Assembly (NCBI GenBank): GCA_000720995.1
Contig: JOEL01000010.1
Coordinates: 1 to 64,000 of the forward strand
Source of the DNA: Streptomyces celluloflavus
GTDB taxonomy: Bacteria > Actinomycetota > Actinomycetes > Streptomycetales > Streptomycetaceae
DNA: 64,000 nucleotides
Direction of reading: 5' to 3'
Made by a program: the position numbers and the translations under genes. The notes beneath the pieces are model-generated. The model saw only the letters and a list, made by a program, of their open reading frames with translations. It had not been told where the DNA came from and did no database searches. This document shows, in pieces, positions 36,576 to 40,128 of this stretch. How positions within the stretch are numbered: position 1 is the stretch's first letter; every line of letters begins with the position of its first letter.

Positions 36576-36688
36576 GAGCGCGCTCCCAGGACGGAGTGAG
36601 GTGTTACGGGACCGGAAGCGAGTCTAGTCGGCGGTGCCACCGGCGGCACTGTGAGGTCCGTCCCCGGCGGCGGCCCTACTCTTGCCCC

Positions 36689-37054
36689 ATGGCGAAGAAG
36701 CTCGTGATCAAGGTGACGGCGGGCGCCGACGCGCCCGAGCGGTGCTCGCAGGCGTTCACGGTGGCGGCCGTGGCGGTGGCCAGCGGCGTCGAGGTGTCGT
36801 TGTGGCTGACCGGGGAATCGGTGTGGTTCGCGCTGCCGGGGCGGGCGGCCGAGTTCGAGCTGCCGCACGCGGCGCCCCTGCCGGAGCTGATCGACGGGAT
36901 CCTCGCGGGCGGCGGCGCGATCACCGTCTGCACGCAGTGCGCCGCGCGCCGCGGTGTCGAGCAGCAGGACCTGATCGACGGGGCGGGCATCGCCGGGGCC
37001 CAGCTCTTCGTCAGCGAGATCATGCCGGACGGCGTCCAGGCACTCGTGTACTGA
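36689..37054 (+). CDS. DsrE-family protein
   Basis: A 121-residue protein of the DsrE/DsrF-like sulfur-relay fold: KLVIKVTAGADAPERCSQAF at the start, VEVSLWLTGESVWF, and a Cys pair in ITVCTQCAARRGV. Cys residues at this position transfer sulfur in DsrE/TusD, so persulfide chemistry is possible; nearby sseA/sseC give some support. ATG 36689 comes six bases after TACTCT, suggesting a leaderless message. Divergent from the small membrane protein. Confidence 0.88.
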   Translation: MAKKLVIKVTAGADAPERCSQAFTVAAVAVASGVEVSLWLTGESVWFALPGRAAEFELPHAAPLPELIDGILAGGGAITVCTQCAARRGVEQQDLIDGAGIAGAQLFVSEIMPDGVQALVY

Positions 37055-37890: not shown

Positions 37891-38730
37891 TTACTTGGCG
37901 GCACCGAGCTCGATCGGGACACCGACCAGCGAGCCGTACTCGGTCCAGGAACCGTCGTAGTTCTTGACATTGGACTGGCCGAGCAGCTCGTGCAGCACGA
38001 ACCAGGTGAGCGCGGAGCGCTCCCCGATGCGGCAGTACGCGATGGTGTCCTTGGCCAGGTCGACGGCCTCGTTCTCATAGAGCGCCTTCAGTTCGTCGTC
38101 CGACTTGAAGGTGCCGTCGTCGTTGGCGTTCTTCGACCACGGGATGTTGCGGGCGCCGGGCACGTGGCCGGGGCGCTGCGACTGCTCCTGCGGGAGGTGC
38201 GCCGGGGCGAGCAGCTTGCCGCTGAACTCGTCGGGGCCGCGGACGTCCACCAGGTTCGTGGCGCCGCCGGCGGCGAGGACCTCGTCGCGGAAGGCGCGGA
38301 TGGAGACGTCCTGCTCCTTCGCCCGGTAGGTGGTCGCGGTGCGGGTGGGCACGGCCGCGACCAGGTCGCGCGAGTCCAGCTCCCACTTCTTGCGGCCGCC
38401 GTCGAGCAGCTTCACGCTGTCGTGGCCGTACAGCTTGAAGTACCAGTAGGCGTAGGAGGCGAACCAGTTGTTGTTGCCGCCGTAGAGGATGACGGTGTCG
38501 TCGTTGGCGATGCCCCGCTCCGAGAGCAGCGCCTCGAAGCCCGCCTGGTCGACGAAGTCGCGGCGCACCGGGTCCTGGAGGTCCTTCTGCCAGTCGATGC
38601 GGATCGCGTTCTTGATGTGGTTCTTCTCGTACGCGGAGGTGTCCTCGTCTACCTCGACGATGACCACCTTGGGGTCGTCGATGTGGGCCTCGACCCAGTC
38701 GGCGTCCACCAGGACGTCGCTACGGCTCAT
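37891..38730 (-). CDS. sseA: Thiosulfate sulfurtransferase (rhodanese), CysA2/SseA type
   Basis: A 279-residue tandem-rhodanese enzyme that transfers sulfur from thiosulfate to acceptors such as cyanide or thioredoxin. The first rhodanese domain is inactive, the second carries Cys233 in the active loop AYCRIGERSA. GHVPGARNIPW and HIKNAIRIDW are the family's domain-start motifs. GGAGGAGAAGAAC precedes the ATG. Forms an operon with sseC and is preceded by a Cys-containing leader peptide, suggesting control by cysteine supply. Confidence 0.95.
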   Translation of the reverse strand: MSRSDVLVDADWVEAHIDDPKVVIVEVDEDTSAYEKNHIKNAIRIDWQKDLQDPVRRDFVDQAGFEALLSERGIANDDTVILYGGNNNWFASYAYWYFKLYGHDSVKLLDGGRKKWELDSRDLVAAVPTRTATTYRAKEQDVSIRAFRDEVLAAGGATNLVDVRGPDEFSGKLLAPAHLPQEQSQRPGHVPGARNIPWSKNANDDGTFKSDDELKALYENEAVDLAKDTIAYCRIGERSALTWFVLHELLGQSNVKNYDGSWTEYGSLVGVPIELGAAK

Positions 38731-38915
38731 GTTCTTCTCCTCCGGGCGGTTACGGGGCAGTTGCGGTGGTGCACGCGGATACGCCGGGTACGCGCCAAGG
38801 GTTCCCGGACCGCGTCCGAGGAGGCCGAAGGCGCGCGGCGCCGCGCGAGGACGTACGAGGGATACGGGGAGGCCGCTGTGGCAGGGACCGTGCAGACGGG
38901 AGCGGAAGGGGCCTG

Positions 38916-39023
38916 TCAGACAGAGCGACAGAGCATGGCGGCGATGCGGCACAGGTCGACTGCCCGGCGCTTCGTGAGTACCGCCTGTCCCCGCGGACGG
39001 AGACCGCTCAAAGAGCTCTGCAT
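38916..39023 (-). CDS. Leader peptide upstream of sseA-sseC
   Basis: A 35-residue ORF: ATG 39023, peptide starting QSSLSGLRPRGQAVLTKRR and ending AVDLCRIAAMLCRSV. The LTKRRAVDLC...AMLC stretch is a conserved actinobacterial leader-peptide sequence placed before sulfur-metabolism operons. Its two Cys codons near the end would let cysteinyl-tRNA supply control ribosome stalling. A -10 (TACGAT, 39036-39031) ends seven bases before the ATG, so the transcript starts at the peptide. The sseA start is 186 bases further on, with GC-rich dyads between. The attenuation mechanism is inferred. Confidence 0.8.
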   Translation of the reverse strand: MQSSLSGLRPRGQAVLTKRRAVDLCRIAAMLCRSV

Positions 39024-39030
39024 GCCACCG

Positions 39031-39036
39031 ATCGTA
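39031..39036 (-). promoter_or_regulatory. -10 element of the leader peptide-sseA-sseC transcript
   Basis: Minus-strand TACGAT, seven bases before the leader-peptide ATG. Confidence 0.65.
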
Positions 39037-39243
39037 GGGACGGAGTGCGGGGCATGTCACCGGTGTGTCGGATGACGAGATGCGATTGTCCGCGATGTGG
39101 GATGTGCGGGGGTGCCGGACCGCCCCGCGCGGCCGTCCGGCGCCGGTGTGCCGGGGAGAGGTCTGGTGGACGGACTACAGCGTCTCAGCGGGTGGACGGA
39201 CCGGCGGGTCGGCGGGGCGGCGGGCCGGTCCGCCGGGGCCGGG

Positions 39244-39948
39244 TCAGCTGCCGGGGAGCGCGACGTTCCGGCCGGAGGCGCTGATCGCGATGCCGTCCGG
39301 CGAGGTCACGACCCGCTCCAGCTTGAGGTTGCGGGGCAGCTGGTCCAGCTTCCAGTCGTGGTCCGTCTGGGCCCGCACCTTCGCCTCGCAGCCCGGGAGC
39401 GCGGCACACACCGTCGGGATCTTGTCGACCCGCAGCCGGACCGTGTTGCCGTTGACGGCGGAGACCGTGCCGGTCACCTCCAGCGAGCTGAGGATCGCGA
39501 CCTTCGGTGCGATCTTGACCTGGCTGCTGCCGTTCTTCTCCCCGCCGTAGGAGACCGTGACGTCGCCGCCCGCGGCCTTGGTCAGGTCGGCGTAGGTGAT
39601 CCGGGCGTCGCCGGTGGCCCTGGCAGCGCTCTTGATGGAGGTGTAGTCGCTGGTCAGTTCCACATCGCGGAACTCGGCGGTCAGCTGGTCCAGCCGCAGT
39701 GCGCGGCCCTCGGCGCGGGCCTGGATGCCGCCGAGGTCGGCGTCCACTTCCTCCAGGGTGCGGCCGGCGACCTGGGTCAGGAACGGGAAGCCCTTGATGG
39801 TGACGTTCGGCGGCTCGTCGAGCCCCTGGCTGCTGCGGATCTTGTCCGCGGCCTTGTTCTCGGCGAAGTTGACCGCGAGGCGGTCGGCGCCGACGAACAG
39901 CGCGCCGAAGATGACGACGACGAACAGCAGCACCCGTAGTGCACGCAT
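39244..39948 (-). CDS. DUF2993 envelope protein (LmeA-like)
   Basis: A 234-residue protein with one N-terminal membrane helix (residues 3-22) and an extracytoplasmic DUF2993 domain. The stretch ADRLAVNFAENKAADKIRSS, then VTIKGFPFLTQV is the hallmark of the family. Mycobacterial LmeA (Rv0817c) binds phospholipids and supports lipomannan elongation; in M. tuberculosis it lies close to cysA2/sseC2, and here it also adjoins sseA/sseC, so the neighbourhood is conserved. GGAAG precedes the ATG. A second DUF2993 gene is at 57.4-58.8 kb. Confidence 0.88.
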   Translation of the reverse strand: MRALRVLLFVVVIFGALFVGADRLAVNFAENKAADKIRSSQGLDEPPNVTIKGFPFLTQVAGRTLEEVDADLGGIQARAEGRALRLDQLTAEFRDVELTSDYTSIKSAARATGDARITYADLTKAAGGDVTVSYGGEKNGSSQVKIAPKVAILSSLEVTGTVSAVNGNTVRLRVDKIPTVCAALPGCEAKVRAQTDHDWKLDQLPRNLKLERVVTSPDGIAISASGRNVALPGS

Positions 39949-40128
39949 CGGACCACTTCCCCCACACATGAGCCGGAGATCCGGCGTTCTCTTCCGCACA
40001 GGCCCCCGCCCGCGCATCGGCGAGCCTAGACGACCGGCTCCGGCGACCGCGGCCGTCGGCCGCCGGAAGGCGCGATCTCGTGCGTGCCCGGCGGCCGGCG
40101 GACGGTGCCCGGCGGCCGCCGACGCACC

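Follow-up and report, generated by a model that had tools for sequence, protein, structure and literature searches.

A candidate cysteine-responsive leader peptide of the Ms5788A family upstream of sseA in Streptomyces celluloflavus

How might a leader peptide with two Cys codons do the work of a mycobacterial Cys run? The question is raised by a locus of Streptomyces celluloflavus (contig JOEL01000010.1 of assembly GCA_000720995.1), in which a short ORF precedes the rhodanese-type sulfurtransferase gene sseA. The window, by which we mean the whole stretch of DNA analysed, comprises positions 1 to 64,000 of the forward strand, and on its minus strand the genes run in the order LmeA-like gene, leader ORF, 185-nt spacer, sseA and a DUF1416 gene, which we take to be sseC, the name that the first-pass annotation also gave (Table 1). 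A DsrE/DsrF-like gene lies close to the sseA operon on the opposite strand (36596..37054). It is probable that the leader is a cysteine-responsive, ribosome-mediated attenuator of sseA-sseC, the response to cysteine being argued from homology.

Table 1. Coordinates of the sseA leader region in the window
Feature	Position	Strand	Basis or remark
LmeA-like gene	39244..39951	-	
-35 hexamer GTGACA	39055..39060	-	promoter search
-10 hexamer TACGAT	39031..39036	-	promoter search; ends 7 nt before ATG
Leader peptide ORF, 35 codons + TGA, Ms5788A family	39023..38916	-	ORF call, HMM match
GGGCAGT, leader codons CGG-GCA-GT, candidate P2 5' arm	38959..38965	-	
Cys codon 1, TGC, residue 25 = core position 10	38949..38951	-	
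Last Cys codon, TGT, residue 32 = core position 17	38928..38930	-	
16-base perfect palindrome	38832..38847		exact copy in window only
ACTGCCC, 5' of sseA Shine-Dalgarno, candidate P2 3' arm	38755..38761	-	
sseA Shine-Dalgarno GGAGGAG	38737..38743	-	sequence and alignment A1
sseA, rhodanese-type sulfurtransferase, 279 aa	37891..38730	-	Pfam PF00581, E 5.3e-33
DUF1416 gene, 95 aa	37568..37855	-	Pfam PF07210, E 4.2e-35

Conservation of the leader ORF, its promoter and its Cys codons

The first-pass annotation had described a 35-codon ORF starting seven bases beyond a -10 element, with two Cys codons near its end, and both observations hold: the ORF encodes a peptide of 35 amino acids (MQSSLSGLRPRGQAVLTKRRAVDLCRIAAMLCRSV) with Cys at residues 25 and 32, and its ATG lies 7 nt from TACGAT. 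The distance from peptide to sseA, given there as 186 bases, is 185 nt (38731..38915, up to the sseA ATG). GTGACA-18-TACGAT is the sole promoter-like site in 38600..39250, on the minus strand, where shuffled sequences give a mean of 0.1. The same geometry recurs in related genomes, the "family" here being kinship group f1 together with the named loci L050-L129, and Streptomyces family, Kitasatospora and mycobacterial being inferred names for many of the genomes compared. In 153 of 159 family loci the distance from the end of the -10 element to the ATG is 7 nt (137 loci) or 8 nt (16 loci), and the element reads TACGAT in 126, TAGCAT in 31 and TAATAT in one (n=158); a -35 element, either GTGACA or ATGACA, is separated from it by 17-18 nt in 154 of 159. 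Because the -10 element is only 7 nt from the ATG, the leader transcript is expected, from this promoter geometry, to start at the AUG and to be leaderless.

Among the best 80 of 568 loci in a scan with SseA, which with few exceptions carry the name of Streptomyces or a close genus, a leader was recognized by the motif VDLxR within 600 nt of sseA in 79; in the leader of the 80th (L125) the corresponding stretch reads RRAIDLC, with Ile for Val. The motif missed L125, L185, L189 and L211, and the leader was confirmed for L125. At the level of whole genomes, which is not a count of sseA-linked leaders, the NCBIfam model NF042933 yields a hit at E<=1e-5 in all 297 genomes sampled from the family of the window and in 145 of the 246 sampled from the class. 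The leader ORF is conserved beyond chance. Its near-invariant core, L-T-K-R-R-A-V-D-L-C-R-V/I-A-A-M-L-C-R, is encoded by 33 distinct 54-nt versions among 80 leaders (79 loci and the window), which are mostly 26-27 codons long, with 35 codons in the window and six others. Core position 15 is Met in 119 and Cys in 71 of 197 leaders, Met being usual in the genus of the window. A nine-codon, CGGGGACAG-like N-terminal insert (39023..38979 in the window) is also present at L051, L053, L060, L089, L103, L119 and L169, and in the window it is predicted to pair with the ribosome binding site (RBS) region.

The last Cys codon of the core, at position 17, is TGT in all 197 parsed leaders, which represent 100 distinct 54-nt cores, and the first, at position 10, is TGC in 185, the other 12 having TGT. 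These 197 include five leaders with a non-ATG start (L157, L175, L198, L204 and L218) that lie outside the 192 used for folding and spacing. All 159 Cys codons counted in family sseA genes are TGC, with zero TGT, and the tally for 40 ORFs of the window selected by GC3 is 99 TGC to 16 TGT. On general knowledge, an invariant non-preferred UGU fits a wobble-read stall site; a constraint on the RNA would also fix it.

Kinship with mycobacterial cysteine leaders

The window peptide matches NF042933, the "Ms5788A family Cys-rich leader peptide", with E 1.9e-11 and 43.4 bits, below the cutoff of 45; since just 63 of 297 family genomes exceed this cutoff, the miss is marginal. The family description places such leaders upstream of a cysA/sseA-type sulfurtransferase, and in the window rhodanese and DUF1416 genes lie downstream, and each of the best 80 sseA loci has the leader. 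Judged by its sequence, the window leader is a member of a Streptomyces-type branch, with fewer Cys codons, of the known Ms5788A attenuator family. With the mycobacterial polycysteine ORFs it shares the LTKRRAVDLCRxA core, the downstream rhodanese, the leaderless-type promoter and Cys near its end. The likeness to mycobacterial Cys uORFs that the first-pass annotation noticed is therefore closer than was stated, as the model match, the downstream rhodanese, the promoter geometry and the conservation all indicate. The branches differ in their Cys codons: relatives taken as mycobacterial carry LTKRRAVDLCRVAGCCCCCC and leaders outside the family commonly LTKRRAVDLCRVATCLCR or alike, with CxC in many, whereas in the window leader, as in most of those seen from its genus, the two Cys stand apart. 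The contiguous Cys run of the mycobacterial type is absent from the window leader, which we do not class as a polycysteine ORF because six residues lie between its two Cys. Nothing in Rfam matched the locus at E up to 1.

There is also a difference in gene arrangement. In the window sseA directly follows the leader, whereas 8 of 10 translated long-gap relatives have an intervening ORF of 139-176 aa, which we take to be DUF4395. These similar ORFs occupy leader-sseA gaps of 566-651 nt at L176, L020, L183, L026, L044, L173, L022 and L187; L172, with a gap of 191, has no such ORF.

Cysteine-responsive attenuation by mycobacterial polycysteine leaderless ORFs was reportedly shown by Canestrari and co-workers in 2020. 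Shell and co-workers saw that the small ORF preceding cysA2 in mycobacteria is occupied by 70S ribosomes (PMC4633059). The available text of PMC1262725 describes leader peptides of mycobacterial cys operons which, like ours, are short ORFs with Cys codons near the stop and no conserved terminator, and which, unlike ours, have runs of Cys codons; for the cysteine leaders that text names Mycobacterium, Propionibacterium acnes and Bifidobacterium longum, and does not name Streptomyces. The LEU element before leuA in the same portion of that source, compared by description only, involves leucine and a pseudoknot, unlike the sseA leader. A reannotation of S. lividans, in the part of its text available, reports eight leader peptides, none of them before thiosulfate sulfurtransferase, a term that occurs there 0 times. 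A literature search that covered few subscription papers returned no paper on a Streptomyces sseA leader.

The sseA leader does not appear to be alone in its genome. The putative leader peptides of NF042934 (cis_reg_atten), a broad domain model, share a VDL/IDL-R-C motif with the window peptide, which itself scores 26.8 bits, short of the cutoff of 27. Four further matches in the same genome exceed the cutoff (L005, L006, L007 and L008), L005 lying upstream of cysteine dioxygenase and L006 upstream of a ThiS-type gene, after which comes a PLP enzyme; fragments of the genes after L007 and L008 were tested and gave no Pfam match. Weaker matches, of a kind that occurs in control genomes too, precede a flavin reductase (L010, 26.4 bits) and an SDF symporter (L011, 20.7 bits). 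It looks as if several operons of this genome are under one cysteine signal. In mycobacteria, several operons are under such a signal.

Candidate pairing between the leader and the sseA ribosome binding site

If the leader is an attenuator, what might act as its switch? The 16-base palindrome that the first-pass annotation pointed to in the spacer is present, and its suggested part in a switch is not borne out: an exact copy was found in one of 192 leader-to-sseA stretches, that of the window, and 5 of 159 spacers, that of the window among them, hold a perfect palindrome of at least 16 bases. Its occurrence in the window alone leads us to judge it incidental. The broader proposal of cysteine attenuation of a sulfur operon stands as to its kind, on the strength of the HMM match, the downstream genes, the conservation and the promoter geometry. 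A better candidate for the switch, with real evidence against it too, is a complementarity that we call P2. The leaders use GCA in 75 of 80 and GTA in 44 of 80. The codons GCA and GTA are rare in such genomes. The leader heptamer GGGCAGT, written CGG-GCA-GT in codons, is complementary to ACTGCCC just 5' of the sseA Shine-Dalgarno sequence, and seven pairs, GU allowed, can form in 130 of 152 distinct loci, that is, distinct leader-plus-RBS pairs out of the 159 family loci. The 130 comprise GGGCAGT/ACTGCCC (104), GGGCGGT/ACCGCCC (19), GGGCGGT/ACTGCCC (6) and GGGCGGT/ATTGCCC (1). Once near-duplicates and leaders with a GTG start are included, P2 is present in 137 of 163 family rows, as against 0 of 34 outside the family, and in this the family is unlike the mycobacterial systems.

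How much of this could be chance? The P2 heptamer itself matches 5.4% of shuffled RBS stretches; at least one leader heptamer pairs perfectly with 64% of shuffled stretches, compared with 152 of 163 real ones, and a second leader-RBS complementarity, at core offset 8, is perfect in 76 of 163. This control, in which most shuffles match some heptamer, lowered our confidence in P2 slightly, from a little under even to somewhat further below it. In alignment A1, 59 hand-picked stretches out of 102 non-redundant ones, the central P2 pair (column 18) is AU in 40, GC in 13 and GU in 6, and the covariation score of P2 is 0.123, compared with 0.075 (sd 0.008) in shuffles and at most 0.064 in slid versions. 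The 99% share of P2 in A1 is too high, and 130 of 152 the fairer figure, because A1 omits rows without ACYGCCC, including L055, L079, L088, L091, L098, L100, L109, L127, L033, L049 and L130. On the sseA tree, the leader first changed from A to G, the target then changed from T to C in lineages already carrying that G, and reversals came afterwards; target C with leader A is found only where the P2 element is degenerate. The compensatory change in P2 is one path, essentially one event.

Other results speak against P2. A perfect P2 is absent in 22 of 152 loci, from four family GTG-start leaders and from all five of the non-ATG leaders listed above, and mismatches are seen at L125 (C-A) and L199. 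On A1, RNAalifold chose a leader hairpin, with no P2 and no long-range helix. Unbound leaders fold on themselves in single-sequence ensembles, where P2 has a mean probability of 0.14 and a median of 0 (81 of 101 loci with the site), and leader-RBS duplex energies barely beat those of shuffles (mean z -0.57, p<0.05 in 9% of 159); outside the family, 0 of 33 leader-RBS duplexes reach p<0.05. In the window, ACTGCCCCGTA followed by ACCGCCCGG lies 5' of the Shine-Dalgarno sequence (38744..38761), so that a near copy, ACCGCCC (38744..38750), adjoins it, and the other 58 rows of A1 have no second copy. We regard P2 tentatively as a conserved candidate for a long-range contact, with some support and on the whole a little more doubtful than not, and as a weak one in the window's own RNA. 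Two other elements were considered and set aside. A leader hairpin P1 (core 9-13 with 29-33) shows covariation of the R4 and C10 third bases in part only (GC 134, GU 5, AU 4, AC 4, CC 5; n=152), the window having a C-C mismatch, and a kissing loop with a short Shine-Dalgarno hairpin has, by eye, mismatched stem positions across whole genera.

Folding with part of the leader masked, as by a ribosome, suggests how a stall might affect sseA. With the A site at codon 17, the mean cost of opening the Shine-Dalgarno sequence in 131 loci is predicted to fall from 4.78 to 3.11 kcal/mol, lower by more than 0.25 in 90 loci and higher in 11, while its mean pairing falls from 0.78 to 0.62 and the probability of P2 rises from 0.12 to 0.26. 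In the model the Cys codon has no special part in this effect: a mask at offset 13 or 15 opens the Shine-Dalgarno sequence as much as that at 17 or more, and 'cod14' gives 3.25. Stalling at the first Cys as the trigger finds no support, masks there failing to open the site. An energy penalty on P2 makes opening costlier, the change being -1.68 with P2 and -1.34 without it, and most of the modelled opening would need no P2. The window itself behaves differently from the family: its opening cost (7.01 to 6.96) and Shine-Dalgarno pairing (0.98 to 0.98) stay flat under the codon-17 mask, because, in the predicted fold, the Shine-Dalgarno sequence is paired with the N-terminal insert (probability 0.94). 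Masks near the leader start do open it in the window (to 4.6-4.7), and it is speculation that queued ribosomes could cover the insert. The fold of the window is no more stable than that of shuffles (z 1.25).

A working mechanism and its rivals

How, then, might the leader work? From the promoter geometry, transcription would begin at the leader AUG and ribosomes would translate the leaderless ORF. When Cys-tRNA is scarce, a ribosome would stall at the Cys codons, perhaps chiefly at the invariant UGU near the end, and the stalled ribosome would block refolding of the leader and make the sseA Shine-Dalgarno sequence more accessible, as modelled for the family rather than for the window sequence. 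With ample cysteine the ribosome would depart, and leader and spacer would refold with the Shine-Dalgarno sequence mostly paired, again on the family model and not that of the window. In the model, P2, the pairing of GGGCRGU with ACYGCCC, would act as an anti-sequestor, tilting the balance towards an open Shine-Dalgarno sequence. A fuller version, which we consider possible though rather unlikely, is an attenuator free of a Cys run, in which a single wobble-read UGU close to the end of a near-invariant peptide does the sensing, and the stall frees GGGCRGU for an anti-sequestering helix with ACYGCCC in place of the mycobacterial arrangement. A nascent-chain stall contributed by the peptide core may make two Cys codons enough.

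Because the spacer is C-rich, the main rival is Rho-dependent attenuation, in which, with ample cysteine, departure of the ribosome lets Rho load on the spacer, a stalled ribosome excludes Rho, and no RNA switch is needed. Family spacers average 48% C and 28% G (159 loci), C exceeding G by more than 0.1 in 97% of them, and the window spacer has 82 C and 47 G of 173. No terminator-like site, by the classical intrinsic-terminator criterion, was found in 38600..39250, which suits Rho and the working mechanism alike, and the available portion of PMC1262725 raises Rho for mycobacterial cys leaders while calling the prediction rather weak. However, the mycobacterial mechanism is described as translational in the accessible parts of a review (PMC9031893) and of a 2026 paper (PMC13236596), and Rho leaves the conserved ACYGCCC beside the Shine-Dalgarno sequence unexplained; we consider it unlikely. 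Arrest by the nascent peptide, the KRRAVDLCR core being read in the exit tunnel so that the peptide itself stops the ribosome, would account for a feature that a pure codon counter, requiring Cys alone, would not: R4, R5, A6, D8, L9, C10 and R11 are identical in all 33 leaders from outside the family, with codons that vary except at R5 (five different codons at R4), and the broader NF042934 motif is found again elsewhere in the genome. Part of the conservation is nevertheless at the nucleotide level, with one R5 codon in 33 of 33 and the fixed TGT at Cys17, which a peptide signal does not predict. As the explanation, arrest seems to us quite unlikely; it is compatible with cysteine-responsive attenuation and does not exclude it. 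Strong amino acid conservation could also mark a microprotein with a function of its own and no role in attenuation, a reading made very improbable by the restriction to one operon, the leaderless geometry, the fixed non-preferred Cys codon, the mycobacterial precedent for action in cis, and the variation in leader length and N-terminus.

Cysteine-responsive attenuation of sseA-sseC remains our preferred reading, and the invariant UGU and the complementarity between leader and RBS give concrete points for mutation. It would carry cysteine attenuation beyond mycobacteria, into a family with many antibiotic producers in which leaders of the same kind also precede other sulfur genes.
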